Shown: positions 3,629 through 44,365 of the stretch, piece by piece | How the letters are laid out: every line of letters starts with the position of its first letter | Position numbering within the stretch: the first letter of the stretch is position 1 | NCBI GenBank assembly: GCA_021927905.1 | Contig: BLLK01000047.1 | Location: forward strand, 1,612,001-1,676,000 | From: Chaetoceros tenuissimus | Lineage: Eukaryota > Bacillariophyta > Thalassiosirophyceae > Chaetocerotales > Chaetocerotaceae | DNA: 64,000 bases | Reading direction: 5' to 3' | The notes under the pieces: generated by a model | The model's input: the letters and a program-made list of their open reading frames with translations, nothing else | Database searches by the model: none | What the model was told of the DNA's origin: nothing | Translations under genes and position numbers: made by a program

Positions 3629-6600
3629 CTAATTATATATATTTTGTAATTTCTTCATTGTTTCCTCGAAAACTCCCCTATCTATATTGAAGGCAGGATT
3701 ATCCATCTGACCATTGTCATCATCTGTAAAAGAAATCGTAAAGATTTCATTATTCTCCATGTATACAGAATCATCAAAGGTGAAAAATGCATCGCCAATC
3801 TCATCTTCAATAATTTCCAAAGGCTTTCCCTTTTGTGATTCATATCGCTCTCTGAAATTCTCTTTTGTTTCATCTTCCCAGTTCATCGGATTCTGTTTCT
3901 TTAATTCTTTCCTAGCAGCAATCAATGCTCTTACAACTTCTATCTTTTTAGGTCTCTTCTTCAAAGTCGTGCACAGAGTAGGGATATCCAATCCCTTATC
4001 ATCCAACTCTTCAATTAAAAGATTCAACTCGTACAAACATTTTTCCCTGGTATAAAGCTTTCTATCACCTGTAACCGCTCTTGTATCTTTTGTAGAGCGT
4101 CGAGTTTCATTAAGGGATCCATCGATGAAGTGCTTTTGGAAATATTCCTTTGATCTTTTGAAACCTTGACTAAGTAGATTCAGTACATCCGGATAGAGAG
4201 GTTCCCCCTCTGGATTAACAAAAGTTTTCACCTCTGATTCTTCATCTTCTCCTTCAGCTGCTTGCGTAAGAACCACTCTCTCTTCTTCCTGATCGTCATT
4301 GCTCACTCTATTCTTATATGGCCTCCTCCTCAGCCGCATAATAGAACCCATCCAAATATTTGAACTACGACACCAAAGATAAGGCTCAAGGAACGCCTTG
4401 TCTAACTTGACCATGCTCTTTCTACCAATTGACATAGATATTTTTGTATTGCTCTTGCTCTTGTCCTTGAGCCTCTTACTGTCATGCATTTCCATCAGCG
4501 TATCTTTTAATTTTTGAACTGTATTTCCCTTGAAATATTTCCCCAAGTAAACTCGTATATCTCGCATCGTCCACTCTACGCTCCTATCCGCAAAAATATA
4601 TTTTCCAAACTTTGTAACCTGAAATAATATAAAAGTATCCAATATTTTTCTCAGTGCATCCGACATGCATGTTCTTTCTATAAAAAAAATGCAAATCATT
4701 TCCACGTAATGATATGCATTGCTATTTATGCATAGCAGCAAAGCATACTTCATCGCTATGCAATATAAAAATGCATTTCTCGTATGTTCTGCCCGCTGAA
4801 GCAAGAACAGTATTTCGCAAAATCTCATTTCCAAAAGAATGACGAAAACAAGCGGATTCTTCTTGGCACGATACAATATCAATTTCATAACATCCTCGGC
4901 GCTAATTTCGACTGAGGATGCCAATTCTGTCCCATCAGCCAAATCAGTCCCATCATCCCAGACATTTGAATCATACGGATTCAATTCATCTTCGTCAGAC
5001 TCCCAATTAATATTGTCCCATAGCCCTCTTCTCTTTAGCCACGATACGCATCTGATTGCCGAAAGAATGTAGGCAAGATGCCTTTGAACCATCTCTCCTT
5101 CAGCCTGGTTCGGATCTGAAGGATTTAGAACGTAATTGACTGAGCCAGTTGATTTTCGGAATAGGAATGTAAGAAAAAATAGGTGCGTATGTTGAAATAT
5201 TGCACCTATTTTTTTATATAGTTCCAACATGAGATGGAACCCACCAAATACAGCTAGGATGCTCTTGTAAAAATTGGCGCCTTCGTCATCTTGGCTGGTT
5301 TCTTTCATTATCCGATGTGCTGCTGAAATAGGATGGCCATCTCCACCAAATCCTATTTTTAATTCAGACAAGCAAGGTACTTGGCCATTCATATTTCCAT
5401 CGTCATAGCCATCCAAGATAGCTTCAGATATTTGTTGTGTATAGTGTAGAAGGTCAATCACTGTTTCCTTCTTGTTCAAGTCTTTTCTCATTGGCACATC
5501 ATAAATTATTCCATCATTGTATCGATGAATACCTGCGTCTTCGCCGTCATTGTTTTCATTTTCATCATCTTCATTTTCATCTTCATCTCTATTATATGCT
5601 TCTCTTCCGGTGTATGAAGGCAGGTATACCGTAGAAGCCTTTGATACTTCCAAAACATCATTCACCAGTATTCTTTTCATTTGACTGTCAGATTGAAATG
5701 CGCCATCTTGTTCAGCTTTGATGATTGACTTTACAATGCAGATCGTATTGCTTGCAAGCGCTTTATTATCTTCGGATGTTGGCTTAATTAGATCATCATA
5801 TGAGTATCCTTCTTTCTTCCGGAGATCTTCCCAATCTTCGCTTGCTCTAGAGAGAGCATCATTTCCATTGTATTCATATACTCCAATCTTTTGGAGCTCA
5901 TGCGCTTTTACAATGACTACTTTTAAAATTGTAAATTGTTCATATCCTTGGCCTTTTTTTGAACCTTACCTACATTTGAAACCAAGATTATCAAAAAGTA
6001 GAATAGCATAAGAATACTTATTTAGTTTAAGCATCTTAAGATCTATTTCTACTTTTGATGATCTAGATTCAATATTTCTTGATTCAGTCTGTCGGCTATA
6101 CGAAGTACCAAGAAGTTGCGACCATCCATATCTATGCGTTTCTCCGAAAAGATTTTGAGCACGTGATCCTAGATTGCGCAGATCTGATCCCCGTCCATCT
6201 TCGAGCTTACGTATATTCTCACTTGAAACCATTATTTTTATGGAATCTGCAATCTTATTTATCGGATTAGTGACTCCCGTTGCAAGACCAACGAGACATC
6301 TATGCAGTAACGTATGCGAATCTTGTGCAGCTAATGATTCAAGTTTTTCAAACAAATTTCCGCCTTGAATTTTGTTAATATCAAAGTCTTCCTTGTATTT
6401 TTGAATCTTCTTCGGGTTCACAAAAGGTCTCAATCTTGCAAAAAGCCCAGGTAGCTTCTCTGTATCTGTATCTAAATCAGTAGATGCTATTGCAGGTGAA
6501 CCAGATGCATCCCGAAAGATGAGTGAAGCCTTGTTTTGCGGGTATAGATATTCTTCCATCTTCAATAGAAAATCCGTATGATTTCTTTTCTTTTCATAGT

Positions 6601-6748
6601 AGTTATAAAAATATCCGGATGCAATCTCTTGGCACTGCTTTAGAGGGCAGACTTGACTCATGGAGAAGGTTGAAAAGCATCGAGCACATAGCAAATGCTT
6701 GCAAGGAATCAATCGCCAAAAAATCACGTGCTCTTGAGCTATGAAAAT
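3629..6748 (-). CDS. DUF6589-like transposase, 5' end displaced
   Basis: Minus-strand gene. Exon 3629-5919 follows a 54-nt intron (5920-5973, donor GTAGGT, acceptor AAAAG), and an upstream exon runs from 5974 to the truncation at 6748. The upstream part carries the second half of a RING-like zinc finger (PCKHLLCARC, then CPLKQC). The main exon has an acidic low-complexity stretch, then LKIGFGGDGHPISAAHR and a VFGGFHLMLELYKK segment. Their order and spacing resemble the GDQ...VFGWFHL core of DUF6589 proteins, which belong to Kyakuja/Dileera/Zisupton-type transposons. The natural start (MSTTDNICSNCG) lies at 11291 in the other half of the element. Counting 39 bases there plus both exons gives 3105 bases, an intact multiple of three (about 1,034 residues). 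The call as transposase is inference from the fold-like motifs and the TIR context. Confidence 0.6.
6246..6748 (+). repeat. 503-bp perfect direct repeat, copy 1
   Basis: Identical, as far as I can read, to 10750-11252 (offset 4504). It lies within the transposase zinc-finger exon. The left boundary is natural sequence of the element (the transposase frame runs through it). The right boundary is abrupt, where ATTTTCAT of the minus strand meets cyclophilin coding sequence. Confidence 0.9.
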
Positions 6749-8883: not shown

Positions 8884-10520
8884 ATGAGCGACGAATACGA
8901 TGTCAAGATCTGCTGTATGGGAGCTGGATATGTTGGAGGACCAACCATGGCTGTAATTGCAAAGATGTGTCCAAGAGTAAGTTTTCTTGGGTTTTGGGAA
9001 AACGAGAAGATTGCCAATCAAGATTGACACCTTGGATATGCTCTTTGAATCTTGAGAAGTATAATTATACTTGAGTTTAAGTGGGGATTCATAATGTGTT
9101 TGAATATATATTCGCAAACTTGGGAACCGAATGAATTGTGCTATGAAAGAAATGTATTTACTAATGTCTTTGTTCTTCCCCCTAGGTACGCGTTTGTGTT
9201 GTGGACCTTAACCAAAAGCAAATCGATGCATGGAACACTGATGAACTTCCAATCTATGAACCTGGCCTTCTTGATGTAGTAAAGACTGCACGTGGTAGAA
9301 ACCTTTTCTTTTCCACTGATATTTCTGGCGAGATTCAAAAGGCAGATATTGTTTTCATCTCTGTAAATACACCAACTAAGACTCAGGGAATTGGAGCTGG
9401 ACGTGCAGCTAACATTAAGAACTGCGAACTTTGTGCACGTACTATTGCTGAAGTTTCCACTACCGACAAGATTGTTGTTGAAAAATCTACTGTTCCTGTG
9501 AGAACTGCAGAGGCTATCCGTCGTGTTCTCAAGTGTAACGACAAGGGACTTAACTTTCAGGTACTATCCAACCCTGAATTCCTTGCTGAGGGAACTGCAA
9601 TTGATGATCTTGAATCTCCAGATCGTGTACTCATTGGAGGATCTCAGAGTCCAGAAGGACTAGCAGCTGCTGAGAAGCTTGCATCTGTTTACGCAAACTG
9701 GATTCCTAGAGAGAGAATTTTGACCACTAACCTTTGGTCTTCTGAGTGTTCCAAGTTGGTAGCTAATGCTTTCCTTGCACAGAGAGTTTCTTCTATTAAC
9801 TCTATTTCAGCACTTTGTGAATCAACCGGAGCTGACGTTTCTGAAATTAGCCGTGCAGTTGGTATGGATGATCGTATTGGAAAGAGATTCCTTCAGGCTT
9901 CTGTTGGATTCGGAGGATCTTGTTTTCAGAAGGATATCCTTAACCTTGTATACCTTTGCGAGACTTACGGTCTTGATGAATGTGCTGAATACTGGAATCA
10001 AGTTGTTAAGATGAATGATTATCAGAAGAAGCGTTTCTCTGAGAAGATGGTAGCGAAGATGTTCAACACTGTGACTGGAAAGAAGATCTCTATTTTGGGA
10101 TATGCATTCAAGAAGGATACTGGTGATGTTCGTGAAACTCCTTCTATGTTTGTTGTAAAGGATCTTTATGCTGAGGGTGCACGCATCCACGTTTATGATC
10201 CACAAGTTAAGCGTGAAGATATGTGGTCTGAGATGGCATACACTTGTGGAATCAGCCCAGACACTGATCCTAAACTTGATGCAGCAGTGACTACTTCTCC
10301 TGATGCTTATGCAGCTTGTGAAGGATCTCATTCTGTTGCAATCTTGACTGAATGGGACGAGTTCAAGACTTTGGATTATGAAAAGATTTACAAGTCAATG
10401 TCTAAGCCAGCATTTATCTTTGATGGACGTAACATTCTTGATCACGACAAGCTTCGTGAAATTGGATTCGAGGTTCATGCAATTGGAAAGCCTGATCCTA
10501 ACGCTTTTGATGACCTTTAA
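8884..10520 (+). CDS. UGDH: UDP-glucose 6-dehydrogenase
   Basis: Oxidises UDP-glucose to UDP-glucuronate with two NAD+, a cytosolic step feeding acidic cell-wall and extracellular polysaccharides. Exons 8884-8976 and 9186-10520 join in phase 0 across a 209-nt intron (GTAAGT...CCTAG), giving 475 residues, close to the animal enzyme (about 494). Exon 1 encodes the NAD-binding Rossmann loop ([10 protein letters not shown]). Exon 2 has the conserved ESTVPV-like segment (EKSTVPVRT), [10 protein letters not shown], and the active-site block [10 protein letters not shown] with the catalytic Cys at residue 277. The C-terminal UDP-binding domain includes [13 protein letters not shown] and FDGRN. All expected catalytic elements are present. 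The gene lies wholly inside the 4-kb block flanked by 503-bp repeats. Confidence 0.97.
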
Positions 10521-10679: not shown

Positions 10680-11291
10680 TTAGTATAGGAGATAAGTACT
10701 AGTACGATCAAGACTCATCATTTGCTTCGTTTTCATATTTAAAACCACCTCTGCAATCTTATTTATCGGATTAGTGACTCCCGTTGCAAGACCAACGAGA
10801 CATCTATGCAGTAACGTATGCGAATCTTGTGCAGCTAATGATTCAAGTTTTTCAAACAAATTTCCGCCTTGAATTTTGTTAATATCAAAGTCTTCCTTGT
10901 ATTTTTGAATCTTCTTCGGGTTCACAAAAGGTCTCAATCTTGCAAAAAGCCCAGGTAGCTTCTCTGTATCTGTATCTAAATCAGTAGATGCTATTGCAGG
11001 TGAACCAGATGCATCCCGAAAGATGAGTGAAGCCTTGTTTTGCGGGTATAGATATTCTTCCATCTTCAATAGAAAATCCGTATGATTTCTTTTCTTTTCA
11101 TAGTAGTTATAAAAATATCCGGATGCAATCTCTTGGCACTGCTTTAGAGGGCAGACTTGACTCATGGAGAAGGTTGAAAAGCATCGAGCACATAGCAAAT
11201 GCTTGCAAGGAATCAATCGCCAAAAAATCACGTGCTCTTGAGCTATGAAAATAGTGCCGCAGTTTGAGCATATATTATCAGTGGTAGACAT
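10680..11291 (-). CDS. RING-like N-terminus of the transposase, 3' truncated
   Basis: From ATG 11291 the minus strand encodes MSTTDNICSNCG, then PCKHLLCARC and CPLKQC: a RING-like zinc finger of the C-x2-C ... C-x-H-x2-C-x2-C ... C-x4-C type. The shared segment continues to PINKIA and then leaves the transposase frame at 10750, running to a stop at 10680 through unrelated sequence. The last pair has four residues between its cysteines rather than the usual two, so zinc binding is likely but E3 ligase activity should not be assumed. It supplies the start codon missing from the copy ending at 6748. Confidence 0.6.
   Translation of the reverse strand: MSTTDNICSNCGTIFIAQEHVIFWRLIPCKHLLCARCFSTFSMSQVCPLKQCQEIASGYFYNYYEKKRNHTDFLLKMEEYLYPQNKASLIFRDASGSPAIASTDLDTDTEKLPGLFARLRPFVNPKKIQKYKEDFDINKIQGGNLFEKLESLAAQDSHTLLHRCLVGLATGVTNPINKIAEVVLNMKTKQMMSLDRTSTYLLY
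10750..11252 (+). repeat. 503-bp perfect direct repeat, copy 2
   Basis: Identical to 6246-6748. Here the right boundary is natural element sequence (the zinc-finger frame continues to its start codon). The left boundary is abrupt, joining the region downstream of the UDP-glucose dehydrogenase gene. Confidence 0.9.
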
Positions 11292-11319
11292 AGGGCTAGG
11301 GTATTGGATAGTCACTAGA

Positions 11320-12078
11320 AGGTGGACATTGAGTGTAATAGAAAGATTGCTTTTGGAACGAAGCCGATCGAGTGATTGTAGGTGAAGATACGGCAAGACT
11401 AGAATAATCAGGTTGCGGTGCAAAGTGGGGCCGCGCCTTTCACCCCTTTGATTGGCAAGCCAAAAGACTGTTTGATTGTAGAACGAGCTTCCAAGAAGCC
11501 GGTCGTGTCCCCCGCGCTGAAGCGCTCACACCGTCGCAATGAAGGGCAACTACGTAACGTAAGATAGTATGTATTTTCAATCCCATTGATTCAAACCTTA
11601 AATGTGACAAAAAGCGAGGAATTGACTTGTCAATATGCATAATTTCGCTTGAATATGTTTTGAATTAATTTCTGCGACAGTCTGCAAAAAACGATAAATG
11701 TGTTTGTGCTCTTATATCTCCACACACAAGAGCACAATTCCAAAACCCTATATTGTCCCTAGTTAATATAGATATGAAGATTTCTAGTTGCTACTATCAA
11801 TACAGCATATTCTGAAATGGAGTTGATATTAGGTTTGGAAGTTTCGTTTCTGCGACAAAATTCAAAAAAAAAATGTAGGTCTCCAATAGGGCAATACTGG
11901 CTCTTTAACGTATATGACGCAGCTAAGGAATATCGGGGCGCTGCCCCAAAAACACAACAGATAGGCCATTTGTGACGTATTACTACTGGTTACGTACGTA
12001 CTTAGGGGAAATCGATTCAAATCAAAACGAAACCAAGAAATCTCACAAAACCTCACAAAAATTTGGTTGCTCCGATGA
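11320..12078 (-). repeat. Right terminal inverted repeat, interrupted
   Basis: Segments 11320-11403 and 11947-12078 together are the inverted counterpart of the left TIR at 1799-2010. The insertion at 11404-11946 splits it. Outside the insertion, differences from the left TIR are one single-base indel, one 4-base indel and a few substitutions at the outer edge. Confidence 0.8.
11404..11946. mobile_element. 543-bp non-coding insertion in the TIR (MITE-like)
   Basis: Recognised because the left TIR gives the uninterrupted site. No coding sequence. Near its two ends are imperfectly inverted copies of TGGGGC-x-GCGCC (about 11424-11436 and 11938-11950). The right end is also a short hairpin (GGGGCGCTGCCCC). 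It inserted in an A5 tract, with at most a 2-bp duplication (AA). TTTCTGCGACA occurs twice inside (near 11670 and 11847). These are features of a small non-autonomous DNA element; the family is unknown. Confidence 0.55.
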
Positions 12079-12126
12079 AGATAAAGTAAAGCGTCATTGA
12101 TCTTTTTTCCTTTTTTTTAAATAAAA

Positions 12127-23286: not shown

Positions 23287-24788
23287 ATGTCTGCACGTAA
23301 TTTCAACAAAGCAATTTCGTTTCAGTCTGACATAGACAACATTGAGGAAGCAGAAATGGAGATCACTGAACGTGCGATGGAAAAATCTGGCTCCATGAGA
23401 ATGAGAAGACAAATGAAGAAAGCTGAAAGCTTCCGTAGAGCTGATGGTACTTTAGGCGAGAAACAACCAGCATGGGATAAAATCAGAAATAAGGAAGAGC
23501 ATCGTCGTAAACTTTTGAGAAGTGTAAGTACAAACGTCTTTAGACTTTAAAATTTGTCAGCTGTGGTGTAGAGCAGCGACTATGGTATGCCCTAGTCTAC
23601 CAAAGCCACCCGACATCTATACAAGCTCATTACTAAGCAATTTTGGAACAAAATAGGTTGAACAGCCATTTTTTCAAATCCTAACACATGGTCGTGGTAC
23701 ATGTTTGAGAAATCTTATTCTAGATCCATTGATTTGGATCACGATGTCTATTTTTGTTGGTTTACGTATCTACGCTCGTCAAGTTGAAGCAGCGCCAATT
23801 GCTGCAGAGCTGCTTGGAAAATCCGACATCAATATCCTTGGTGGATGTAAGTATTCGAAAATCTTCCTTTAACTTCGTGCAAATAAATGAAGTTTCTAAT
23901 GTTCCTGGCTCCATGTATTTCTTTACGATATACAAAGTTCTCTCGTTCTTCTTAGTTTTTTTCGTGAACCAGACCAATAGCCGTTTCCTTGAAATGTATG
24001 GATTTAGCAAGGCAAGCGCCGGAAGAACCCAAGATGTAGCAGGTATTGCTTCCACTCAGTTCCCTCCTCATCTTGCGCAGCAGATCAACCGTCATATGAA
24101 TGCTGCGCATGTCGCAGGTTATGTTGGATTGGGTGGACCATACAGTAAAAAACATTTCTTTGATCATTACAATAAGGAATGGAATCTCATGACTGAAGAG
24201 GAAATGGACTCTATTTCCCATTATAATATGGACTCAGGCGCAGATATGTTGAAAGAACTCGTCACTTGGTGCCAGCGTGATGTGGGGATCGCAAAAAAGG
24301 CGGGATACATTGATAGTGTAGAAGCAACGGAACTCCATGATCGTATTGTACAGTTTCGTGCCGCAATGGATGGTAAGCCATATATACATATTACCAAGAT
24401 ATTTCTTTGCGAATTTGATGACATGAAAATTTTTCTGACGAGTTTTCATTCTTCAGGTATCTATGATTACACTGACCAGCCTCCACATTTCTTTTACATT
24501 CATTTCCTGTGTCTCTTGTCCGCTTTCTATCTACCACTTTTTGCAATTGATAATGCGTATTCAACTGGTTGGGGAGCAGACACAGACTACGGCGTTGAAG
24601 TATTAAATGGAATCATTGTCTTTTTGCAATGTGTATTCGTGATTGGTCTCCGTTTGCTTGGACAAAAGATGGTTGATCCATATGGAGATGATTTAGAAGA
24701 TCTCAGCGTTAAAACTTATGTGGAAACCACACTCATCAATTGCAATATTATCTTGAACACTAAGGGATCCATGTACAATGCAGACTAA
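23287..24788 (+). CDS. Bestrophin-like anion channel
   Basis: Four exons, 23287-23523, 23657-23846, 23956-24372 and 24457-24788, in consistent phase (391 residues). The spliced product has the bestrophin layout: a basic, soluble N-terminus (79 residues in exon 1), a membrane segment DPLIWITMSIFVGLRIY, a helical middle rich in charged residues, two further hydrophobic segments (FFYIHFLCLLSAFYLPLFAI and LNGIIVFLQCVFVIGLRLLG) and the hallmark acidic DPYGDDLEDL, equivalent to the Ca2+-clasp region. Family members conduct Cl- or HCO3-, and in algae some sit in thylakoids. No plastid leader is seen. Intron 2 is derived from the neighbouring aminotransferase gene (see findings). The stop is 187 bp from the aminotransferase stop, convergent. 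Confidence 0.8.
23844..23931 (+). repeat. Copy of aminotransferase coding DNA inside bestrophin intron 2
   Basis: The first 73 bases match 25127-25199 with one mismatch; similarity continues to 23931/25214 with three more mismatches. The source is coding sequence of the minus-strand aminotransferase, so the intron carries it antisense. The copy includes the intron donor (GATGTAAGT in both places). The remaining 24 bases to the acceptor at 23955 are pyrimidine-rich and not shared. Confidence 0.92.
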
Positions 24789-24975: not shown

Positions 24976-26442
24976 TTAAGTAGGCGTCTTTGATATTTTA
25001 CTCTTGTCGATCTTTGCAATCATTTGAGCTGCTTTTTTGAAGGCATCTATAAATTCGTCAGCATCTTCTATAGAGAAAGCTAAAGGCGGTTTGACGACCA
25101 AAACATTATCATGTGGGCCATCAATTGATGTAAGTATTCGAAAATCTTCCTTTAACTTCGTGCAAATGAATGAAGTTTCTAATGTTCCTGGCTCCATGTC
25201 ATTATTTACGATATCAATACCCATGAATAGACCTCGCCCTCTCACATCTCCAATATTTACATCTGGACAATCAGATAGATCCAAACTGAGAAATTTTGAC
25301 TTTAAATAATTCCCGACTCTTGCAGCATGCGCTGGAAGCTTATTCCTTTCAAGCTCGTCCAGCACTGCTAATCCGGCAGCACAACAAACTGGGCTTCCTG
25401 CAAATGTATTAAAATATTCAACACCCATACTCTCGAAAGCACTACTAACCTCTTCAGTTGTAATTACTGCTGCTAGAGGCATCCCGTTTCCAAATGGTTT
25501 GCCTATGAATAATATTCAATGATCACTTAGTGTTCAATTCAATAATAATACTTATTCCGAATTTGTAACCTCGAAATCTGACCTACCTATAGTAACTATA
25601 TCTGGGACGATGTCATTGCCACCATGTAAAAACGCCCAGAAACAATCATCGCCTAATCTTCCCAATGCAGTCTGAACTTCATCTGCAATGTACAATCCAC
25701 CCGCAGCTCGAACAGCATCGACACACTTCTTGAAATACATGGGTGGTGGAAGTATCACACCGCCGACACTTAGTCCTCCTTCTGTAATAAATGCGCATAC
25801 ATCTTCTCCTCGCTTTTTGTATGTGTTGCAAGCTTCGACAACATAATTTGCGTACTTGGATGCAGCATCATCACCAGTGTGAATCCCACGAAATGTATCA
25901 GGACAAGGAACTTTGATCACATTCTTCCCCAGACTATCATTGAAAGGCATATTGAACTCTTTGCTTTTGTACTTGTATGGAGAGACTGCTAAGGTGCTCA
26001 AAGTATGACCATGATAAGCAGTATCCACTACTATCATGTTGTTTGACTTTGTTTTTGCTTGAGCTAATCTCAGTGCCAAATCATTTGCTTCGCTTCCAGA
26101 ATTTACAAAGAAAACTTTACACAGGGGATCTGGAAGTAGAGATACAAGTCTTTCCGCCAACAATGCTGCATTTGGATGAAGATACCTTGTATTTGTGTTT
26201 AGAATTCCGACTTGTTTTTGTACTGCTGCAACGACTGCTTCATTTTGATGGCCAACATGACACACATTATTACGCGTGTCTAGATAGACATTTCCATGTT
26301 CATCAATCAATCGAGCCTTGTAACCTCCCATAATCATGAGAGGGTCAGAATTTTCGTAGGATACACTAACACTAGAAGAGAAAAACTTTTTTCTTTTTTC
26401 CAAAATTTCATCTTTGGTGTATTCACTTTCTTCTTTATCCAT
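24976..26442 (-). CDS. AGXT2L-type class III PLP enzyme (ethanolamine-phosphate phospho-lyase-like)
   Basis: Exons 25587-26442 and 24976-25502 (84-nt intron, phase 1) give 460 residues. A fold-type I PLP enzyme. It has GSEANDLALRLA (phosphate-binding), AYHGHT, DEVQTALGRLGDDCFWAF (the Asp that contacts the pyridine nitrogen, and the WAF typical of the AGXT2L branch), and the PLP Lys at residue 287 in GKPFGNGMP, formed across the splice. The C-terminal SIDGPHDNVLVVKPPLAFS segment matches the ETNPPL/PHYKPL subgroup, whose members eliminate phosphate from phosphoethanolamine or phosphohydroxylysine. Substrate not provable here. No leader peptide. Part of its last exon was copied into an intron of the convergent neighbour. 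Confidence 0.88.
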
Positions 26443-41998: not shown

Positions 41999-44365
41999 AT
42001 GCTACATTTCCTAGCAAATGCTTTCAATAGCATACTTCCATCTACGAAAAGCGCACATGAAGATAGTGAAGCAAATGAGCCTCACAATACTAGTTTAGGT
42101 GTTATCCTGCCGCCGCTGCCGCCGCCGCCCAATGCTACTACGAATCAGCACAACAAGTTTGCTGTTACTGGTGCTCTTGTCACCACTACTAATGCTGCTA
42201 CTACTACCGACACGCGTGTATCTCCTACTACTGTTACTGCTACTACAACTTTAGGTACTTCTTCTTTACAACAAAACCGCAACAGTGATAATATGGTTAC
42301 CAATAGACATTTTCCGCCATATCCTTCTCAAGAACAAGTATTACCACAATCTCCTCTTCCATCTAGATCTTTGGCAATGACATCCTCCTCATTACAGCAA
42401 TATTCAGATATCCTAAATCAGGAAAGAGAGAGTCCATATTCAGATATCCTTAGACAGGTAAGAGAGAGAAAGAAGCCATCTGTAACAAAAAAGCAAGCTA
42501 CAATTGCAAAGCATGATAAGCCATCTACATTGTCTTCAACCAAGAAGCAAGCTAGAACTCCAAAACGTAACAAAAAGTACTCAGATTATGTTGGAGTTAG
42601 TTGCCACAATCCAGGTCCTACTCAATCTGTGCTCAATGCGCCAACAGTATCTACACCAGGTCCTACTCAATCTGTGCTCAATGCGCCAACAGTATCTACA
42701 CCAGGTCCTACTCAATCTGTGCTCAATGCGCCAACAGTATCTACACCAGGTCCTACTCAATCTGTGCTCAATGCGCCAACAGTATCTACACCAGGTCCTA
42801 TTAGTACAAGAGAATATCAAATTGTACCAGATAAAGATGTATGCACGACCTATGTTGGAGTATCTTACACCAAGAAAACTATGAAATATAAAGCTTATAT
42901 CAAACAGAATGCAAAACAGTACCATCTCGGATGTTTCCAATTGGAATGCGATGCTGCAAGGGCCTATGATCAAGCTGTAAAAATAGTGATGAGTACTGCA
43001 AGTACTAGTTATAATCGGAAGAAAAACTTTGATTCAGATGAAGAATACAATGCAGCACGGAAAAGGGAGATCGATGAAATAGTAAAGAAGAACATGGACA
43101 TTTATAAACGCGAGGGGAAAAATTTTGATGAAAAAATGTTCAAAGAGACCTTGGTGACTACTTTCGATTTAGAGAATAGAAAGAAGGATCGAATTTTCAC
43201 AAAATTCAATATGCATATGCAACAGAACAATATGTATTGGCCTCCGCCACCTCATATGCACCATCCATATCATGGATATCCAATGGGTATGTATGGATAT
43301 GCTCCTCCGAACTCAGTTCCTACTCAACCTGTGCACAATGTGCCGCCAGTATCTGCACAAGGTCCTACTCAACCTGTGCACAATGCGCCGCCAGTATCTG
43401 CACAAGGTCCTACTCAACCTGTGCTCAATGCGCCGCCAGTATCTGTACAAGGTCCTACTCAACCTGTGCTCAATGCGCCGCCAGTATCTGCACCACATTC
43501 TACTAGTACAAGAGAATATCAAATTGTACCTGAATCATATGCTGAGATTAGTTCACATTCTACTAGTTCAAGAGAATATCCAAACGAAGATCATCTTCCA
43601 TATGCTGAAACGAGATCACATACTTCTACGCTTGTACGCGCAGTCACAATAACTCCATCAAACATTCCAGATAAAGACGTGTGGTCTATCAAGGAGCTGA
43701 CTAAATTGGGTGAAGCTATTCAGAGAACAAAATCTAACAAAACAACTCCAACCCAAAAATTTCGCGAAATGACAAGTATTGTTGGGACACGTAGCTATAA
43801 AGAAGTCAAAGAGTGTTATAAAGAAGTTCGTGATCTTGGAGGAGGAATAGATGGATATATTGTCCATGTGCATGGACGAGAGGGATTAGCGAACGGAATC
43901 AGAAAAGATGAAATGGGGGAACATGATGTCATCTATGCTCAAGGCGTAAGCATAATGAAATCGCATCACGAAGGGCTGGTAAAACTACGTTCTTACATCC
44001 AAAGCAGATTGCAAACAGAATTGTTACATGAAGACATAGCAGTGCAAGTAGTTTTTTTGGTTTTAGGGTATGGCGGAAAATTTTACGAAAAAGTCCAGAA
44101 ACAGGGTGATCGGTACCCACTTTATTATCCAATGTCACGGGAGAAGGCAGTAGAGTTGACGATAAAGAGAGTCGAAACTGTTGAAAAGCATGAAAATTTG
44201 AAGATTGCTAGACTAAGCCACATTGACGATGTTGAAATAGCATATCCTGCTCCACAGGGGGGCAGCGACCAGCTCTTAGAGACATGTTGGACAACTATAC
44301 ACAAAATCCAAATGATCAAGAGGCACAAGATACGATCGAACAGAATATGTATCCAGTCCTGTTGA
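41999..44365 (+). CDS. AP2-like / Myb-like / DUF6824-like regulator, first frame
   Basis: Order of parts: Thr/Pro-rich N-terminus; four perfect 15-residue PTQSVLNAPTVSTPG-type repeats (42611-42790); an AP2/ERF-like DNA-binding domain (about residues 285-335, YVGVSYTKK ... YHLGCFQLECDAARAYDQAVK); a Tyr/Pro-rich linker with four more related repeats (43316-43495); a Myb/SANT-like helical segment (about 558-615, DVWSIKELTKLGEAI); and a region (about 640-735, HDVIYAQG ... GYGGKFYEK ... YPMSREKAVELTIKRV) resembling DUF6824, common in diatoms. Probably a nuclear transcription regulator. The last 30 codons after GGSDQL look random: the real frame probably shifts at the G6 run near 44257-44262 into the following frame. 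Confidence 0.7.
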   Translation: MLHFLANAFNSILPSTKSAHEDSEANEPHNTSLGVILPPLPPPPNATTNQHNKFAVTGALVTTTNAATTTDTRVSPTTVTATTTLGTSSLQQNRNSDNMVTNRHFPPYPSQEQVLPQSPLPSRSLAMTSSSLQQYSDILNQERESPYSDILRQVRERKKPSVTKKQATIAKHDKPSTLSSTKKQARTPKRNKKYSDYVGVSCHNPGPTQSVLNAPTVSTPGPTQSVLNAPTVSTPGPTQSVLNAPTVSTPGPTQSVLNAPTVSTPGPISTREYQIVPDKDVCTTYVGVSYTKKTMKYKAYIKQNAKQYHLGCFQLECDAARAYDQAVKIVMSTASTSYNRKKNFDSDEEYNAARKREIDEIVKKNMDIYKREGKNFDEKMFKETLVTTFDLENRKKDRIFTKFNMHMQQNNMYWPPPPHMHHPYHGYPMGMYGYAPPNSVPTQPVHNVPPVSAQGPTQPVHNAPPVSAQGPTQPVLNAPPVSVQGPTQPVLNAPPVSAPHSTSTREYQIVPESYAEISSHSTSSREYPNEDHLPYAETRSHTSTLVRAVTITPSNIPDKDVWSIKELTKLGEAIQRTKSNKTTPTQKFREMTSIVGTRSYKEVKECYKEVRDLGGGIDGYIVHVHGREGLANGIRKDEMGEHDVIYAQGVSIMKSHHEGLVKLRSYIQSRLQTELLHEDIAVQVVFLVLGYGGKFYEKVQKQGDRYPLYYPMSREKAVELTIKRVETVEKHENLKIARLSHIDDVEIAYPAPQGGSDQLLETCWTTIHKIQMIKRHKIRSNRICIQSC
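42611..42790 (+). repeat. Minisatellite A: four 45-bp units
   Basis: Four apparently identical 45-bp units, each beginning CCAGGTCCTACTC, in frame in the regulator gene (15 residues per unit), with a partial fifth start at 42791. Perfect identity at synonymous sites points to very recent expansion. Confidence 0.95.
43316..43495 (+). repeat. Minisatellite B: four 45-bp units
   Basis: Four 45-bp units beginning G(G/T)TCCTACTCAACC, about 525 bp downstream of array A and related to it (both encode PTQ-x-V-x-NAP-x-VS). Units differ by a few substitutions, so this array is older or less homogenised. Confidence 0.95.

Follow-up and report, generated by a model that had tools for sequence, protein, structure and literature searches.

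The origin of spliceosomal introns is an open question, since the source of a young intron can often not be traced. The predicted second intron of a bestrophin-like gene of Chaetoceros tenuissimus shares nearly its whole sequence with a coding exon of the neighbouring aminotransferase gene, and we asked how this intron came to be there. The window, i.e. the whole stretch of DNA that was analysed, comprises 64,000 nucleotides, and all positions given below refer to it.

Self-comparison of the window indicated that positions 23844-23931 (the copied tract, plus strand) and 25127-25214 (the source tract) form a direct repeat with a spacing of 1283, in which 84 of 88 bases are identical and four are mismatched. 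BLAST aligned the pair over 92 columns with 94.6% identity (E 6e-36; E 1e-33 in the self-comparison of the window) and, by opening one gap, carried the copied tract on to 23935. A chance origin of this repeat is excluded. Both copies start with GATGTAAGT, a sequence that is found four times in the window when both strands are counted. The earlier note, which had aligned the first 85 bases of the intron with 25130-25214 at about 95% identity, is confirmed by this alignment. No second intronic copy was found by self-comparison in the 64 kb, the only other copy being coding sequence.

The remaining self-comparison matches with E at most 1e-3 fell into three groups only, namely 45-bp tandem arrays at 42.6-43.6 kb, a 503-bp repeat pair and inverted pairs joining about 1.8-2.0 kb to 11.3-12.1 kb. 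The arrays consist of 4.2 copies of a 45-bp unit with 100% matches (42611-42800) and 3.9 copies of a 45-bp unit with 96% matches (43318-43493), both inside a 788-aa open frame with a sub-threshold AP2 match. The 503-bp direct repeats (6246-6748 and 10750-11252) are 100% identical, flank a UDP-glucose/GDP-mannose dehydrogenase frame at 9201-10520 and overlap the minus-strand open frames 5966-6727 and 10680-11423; the pair suggests that a duplication or conversion took place very recently. The inverted duplicates between 1798-2016 and 11319-12079 (131-132 nt at 97.7% and 86-90 nt at 94.4%) join both sides of the 2-12 kb region that holds the 503-bp repeats.

The source tract lies on the minus strand inside exon 2 (24976-25502) of the aminotransferase gene, which is convergent with the bestrophin-like gene. 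Exon 1 of this gene spans 25587-26442 with the start codon at 26442, the single intron is 84 nt long (25503-25586, GTAGGT..TAG) and the protein has 460 aa. The best PDB match was ethanolamine-phosphate phospho-lyase 6tor (E 2e-114) over nearly the whole length, an alignment that takes in the copied codons (minus strand, ..ETSFICTKLKEDFRILTS..). None of the 25 NCBIfam models listed reached its own curated cut-off, so the source gene is described as ethanolamine-phosphate phospho-lyase-like, the enzyme name being only a resemblance. Since the source tract is part of a conserved coding exon, the aminotransferase gene served as the source, from which the bestrophin copy derives, as had been proposed before. 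The plus strand of the source tract carries GTAAGT at 25130, the single occurrence of this hexamer on the antisense strand of the aminotransferase gene, and it is there that the copy begins. The claim that the copy brought its own donor agrees with this position and with the opening of both copies by the same sequence.

The bestrophin-like gene is encoded on the plus strand by four exons. Exon 1 (23287-23523, start codon at 23287) is followed by intron 1 (23524-23656, 133 nt, GTAAGT..TAG, placed by frame and splice sites) and by exon 2 (23657-23846), which ends in ..GGA T. Exon 3 (23938-24372) begins TT CTC TCG .. and is read as F L S F F L V F F V N Q T, while intron 3 (24373-24456, 84 nt, GTAAGC..CAG) separates it from exon 4 with the stop codon (24457-24788). 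The spliced model predicts 397 aa plus stop and matched Pfam PF01062 (Bestrophin) with 49.9 bits, above the gathering cut-off of 24.2. A PDB search with a bestrophin fragment gave no match, and the full protein gave weak matches, the best being bestrophin-2 (E 0.22). The segment FLSFFLVFFV presumably resembles a transmembrane helix of animal bestrophins, a likeness that was not counted as evidence. Intron 3 lies within the open frame 23754-24788 and is free of in-frame stops, so its retention would add 28 residues.

The extent of intron 2 was examined by scoring spliced models with the Pfam profiles Bestrophin (PF01062) and Bestrophin_2 (PF25539). Twenty donor/acceptor pairs are frame-compatible (8 GT-AG and 12 GC-AG); the scoring covered six of them, all of the GT-AG type. 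The Bestrophin/Bestrophin_2 bits were 49.9/35.8 for 23847-23937, 53.1/34.4 for 23841-23937, 47.0/29.8 for 23841-23892, 45.2/29.1 for 23847-23892, 39.5/25.0 for 23847-23955 and 39.1/24.9 for 23851-23980. Among these six pairs, both models ending at 23937 lead both profiles. The 109-nt intron with its acceptor at 23955, as the earlier note had it, was rejected, scoring 39.5 bits with PF01062 vs 49.9 bits with the acceptor at 23937. In the exon 3 frame the 18 nt before 23955 encode LSFFLV, and splicing at 23955 drops these six bestrophin-domain residues (GG-FFFVNQT vs GG-FLSFFLVFFVNQT). With the acceptor at 23937, PF01062 favours the donor at 23841 by 3.2 bits whereas PF25539 favours 23847 by 1.4; the former is a weak GTGGAT, from which the copy would begin 3 nt inside the intron, and 23847 was chosen because it is a consensus GTAAGT. 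Since the acceptor 23937 is best on both profiles, intron 2 most likely corresponds to 23847-23937, a predicted intron of 91 nt (GTAAGT..ATACAAAG). The joined flanks would then read GGTGGAT/TTCTCTCG, with the intron at the phase-1 position GGA T^TT.

With this revised acceptor the predicted intron is all copy except for its last 6 nt, or, by the gapped BLAST alignment, its last 2 nt. The copy therefore ends 0-3 nt from the donor and 2-6 nt from the acceptor; the copied tract is practically the intron itself, which fits a gain better than the 109-nt version did. The end of the intron, ACAAAG (23932-23937, plus strand), has no ungapped match in the source, although its ACAA is aligned to the source by BLAST with one gap, and it supplies the acceptor AG. 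No informative match to ACAAAG was found elsewhere in the window. At the left junction GAT (3 nt) is present in both target and source, so that the microhomology reported earlier at the 5' side stands. At the right junction the source reads GATATCAATACC vs GATATACAAAG in the intron, and there is no clear microhomology. No flanking direct repeat was found at intron 2 (0 nt match on both sides); the exon sequence is not repeated at the other end, hence there is no target-site duplication.

Several features of the sequence suggest that this insert is removed from the transcript. Its retention would introduce an in-frame stop (GGCKYSKIFL, then stop), and the 91 nt would also shift the frame. The probability of finding GTAAGT and AG at fixed places, calculated from window frequencies, is about 2.8e-4 x 0.06 (~2e-5); few unspliced inserts would therefore be expected to resemble intron 2. 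Given the stop, the frameshift and this low chance, intron 2 is very likely spliced with the domain frame restored. Three candidate branch sites of the YTNAY-like type, TTAAC (23869), CTAAT (23896) and TTTAC (23922), are all located in the copy, their A's lying 65, 38 and 12 nt upstream of the intron end.

Two readings of these data deserve the most weight, and the weights given to both are judgements and not computed values. On balance we favour, by a modest preference, that intron 2 is a recently gained spliceosomal intron that arose via local templated insertion. A break or a stalled fork would have opened the bestrophin-like exon at GGTGGAT^TTCTC, and a 3' end would have paired through GAT with the aminotransferase exon 1.28 kb downstream, on its antisense strand. 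Synthesis on this template would have run for about 88 nt, and a few bases that are untemplated or of unidentified origin (ACAAAG, or AG alone) would have been added before the end was rejoined. With the antisense GTAAGT, the branch-like motifs in the copy and the AG at the junction, such an insert could have been spliced precisely from its birth and would so have escaped selection, and the intronless ancestral site would read GGTGGATTTCTC-like. If spliceable exon inserts are the only ones to survive, the close agreement between the ends of the copy and those of the predicted intron is as expected. Since GTAAGT is single in the aminotransferase antisense, a gain would have needed luck, filtered by selection. 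The filler-DNA model of the earlier note is partly upheld: a template identifiable elsewhere was found at 25127-25214, the junctions show GAT on the left, no flanking direct repeat and no clear microhomology on the right, and the source, the donor, the GAT and the youth of the copy all stand, while the 109-nt extent probably does not.

The other reading, which we regard as possible though clearly less probable, is that an older intron already occupied this position and that during repair or replication its donor, GATGTAAGT, paired with the same 9-mer on the antisense strand of the aminotransferase gene, the body being overwritten by the copy and ACAAAG left behind. Under such a replacement the copy would begin with an exact match of 9 nt without any need of luck, and this 9-mer is found only four times in the two strands of the window; changes internal to an intron also need no selection for splicing at birth. 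It does not predict, however, that the copy stops 2-6 nt from the acceptor. In addition, the acceptor of intron 2 is AAG without a pyrimidine tract, whereas the other three introns of both genes end in TAG, CAG and TAG; as a leftover it would be poor for an old intron, although the yardstick consists of these three other introns only. No related gene or empty-site orthologue was found in the viral and prokaryotic contigs searched by protein scans that require exact 8-residue patterns; a eukaryotic orthologue is not expected in such collections, so its lack there says little.

That the tract was copied from the aminotransferase mRNA or cDNA, by a reverse-transcribed patch or RNA-templated repair, and not from DNA, is improbable. 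PMC11390984 deals, as far as its available text goes, with RNA-mediated end-joining repair, and the tract lies wholly inside an exon, so that an RNA template is possible. Nothing demands it, however: no exon junction is crossed and a DNA template is located 1.28 kb away in cis. It is very unlikely that the copy is an unspliced insertion disrupting a bestrophin allele, or an assembly error. If the insertion were young the gene could still look intact, but the donor and acceptor at the insert ends restore the bestrophin frame, for which the chance is the low one given above, and a 92-nt copy with 4 substitutions would be an atypical assembly fault. Least credible of all is a reverse splicing event in which a cryptic intron with its donor at 25130 was transposed from a bestrophin read-through transcript: the genes are convergent, such a transcript would read the plus strand of the source and the copy begins exactly at a GTAAGT, but the source has no AG at the intron end (GATATCAATACC vs GATATACAAAG) and the common exonic GAT would be an accident.

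The substitutions between the two copies are in agreement with the recent date that had been proposed for the copy. In its first 73 nt there is one difference, which is synonymous in the aminotransferase (F397), and the other three differences, each of which would change a residue, are clustered at 23917-23921. Three of four substitutions within 5 nt gave p ~0.018 in a simulation, a post hoc test. A second template for the differences at 23917-23921 was sought and rejected; the longest exact match elsewhere was 11 nt, and since 47 of 150 random spans gave at least 11 nt this match is not meaningful. Ages were calculated with the rate of 4.77e-10 per site per generation that the available text of PMC6604790 gives for Phaeodactylum, assuming 1.3 neutral-equivalent copies per site. 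The estimate from one change in 73 sites is about 2.2e7 generations (95% range 5.6e5 to 1.2e8), and that from all four changes in 88 is 7.3e7 generations (range 2e7 to 1.9e8); both values serve only to illustrate that the copy is recent.

If the preferred reading of a gain is right, intron 2 would join the introns attributed to break repair, with a source that is unusually clear, local and antisense to coding sequence. Introns derived from organelles reportedly also consist of identifiable DNA from elsewhere, the source there being an organelle and not the antisense coding DNA of a neighbour. Target-site duplications are a feature of introners and intron transposons, from which intron 2 differs in having none (0 nt on both sides). 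A tandem genomic duplication intron of the AGGT type was also considered and rejected, as the match lies in another gene, at a distance of 1283 nt, and not in the adjoining exon. In the sections available of PMC9860276, introners resemble intron 2 as recent introns with a second genomic copy, but here that second copy is host coding sequence and not an intron, and one intronic copy is present in 64 kb.

In Daphnia pulex, neointrons have been attributed to double-strand break repair, with direct repeats marking staggered breaks (PMC4202315). According to the accessible part of that paper, among 90 new introns only four inserted segments had potential source matches, one being an rRNA gene and the other three explicable, per its authors, by microsatellite proliferation; besides those four, one mitochondrial case is cited from an earlier study. 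Like the Daphnia introns, intron 2 is short and recent, interrupts a coding exon and is ascribed to insertion at a repaired break; unlike them, it has an obvious source nearby and lacks a flanking repeat. The filler DNA model with a sought template was likewise applied to gained introns of Drosophila, for which the text available of PMC3296678 gives weak full-coverage mitochondrial matches (cut-off E 0.1, figure example 0.032), the better matches (E up to 1e-4) covering 60-70%; in contrast, intron 2 has a match of E ~1e-33 over nearly the whole intron to a nuclear coding template 1.28 kb away. Templated insertions by MMBIR or alternative end joining are similar in the copied insert and the short junction microhomology (PMC8421209, PMC7407515, as excerpted); in the cancer genomes of PMC8421209 microhomology was 2-12 bp, with an average of 3.7 bp, at 80% of the junctions examined. 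The MMBIR search, as described in the excerpt, covered inverted copies with templates within 100 bp, whereas here an 88-nt copy stands in direct orientation 1.28 kb from its template. Among the literature matches listed, in the parts of their text that were available, none described an intron made from the antisense coding sequence of a neighbour, which is no claim of absence from print.

A broader proposal is that introns may be born in one step from the antisense coding exon of a neighbour, with donor and branch candidates prefabricated, and that such DNA near breaks would form a recurrent, ready-made intron reservoir in the lineage. We hold this to be doubtful. With the known repeats and the pair masked, the window contained 2 exact direct matches of at least 16 nt vs 0-3 in ten first-order random sequences; the lack of an excess argues against many such events in the window and against the recurrent part of the proposal. 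For intron 2 itself the sequence reveals the template, its strand, its distance and the left junction, and the donor is accounted for by the source. Should intron 2 be missing from close relatives, it would be a clear natural case of an intron that arose by local templated insertion.
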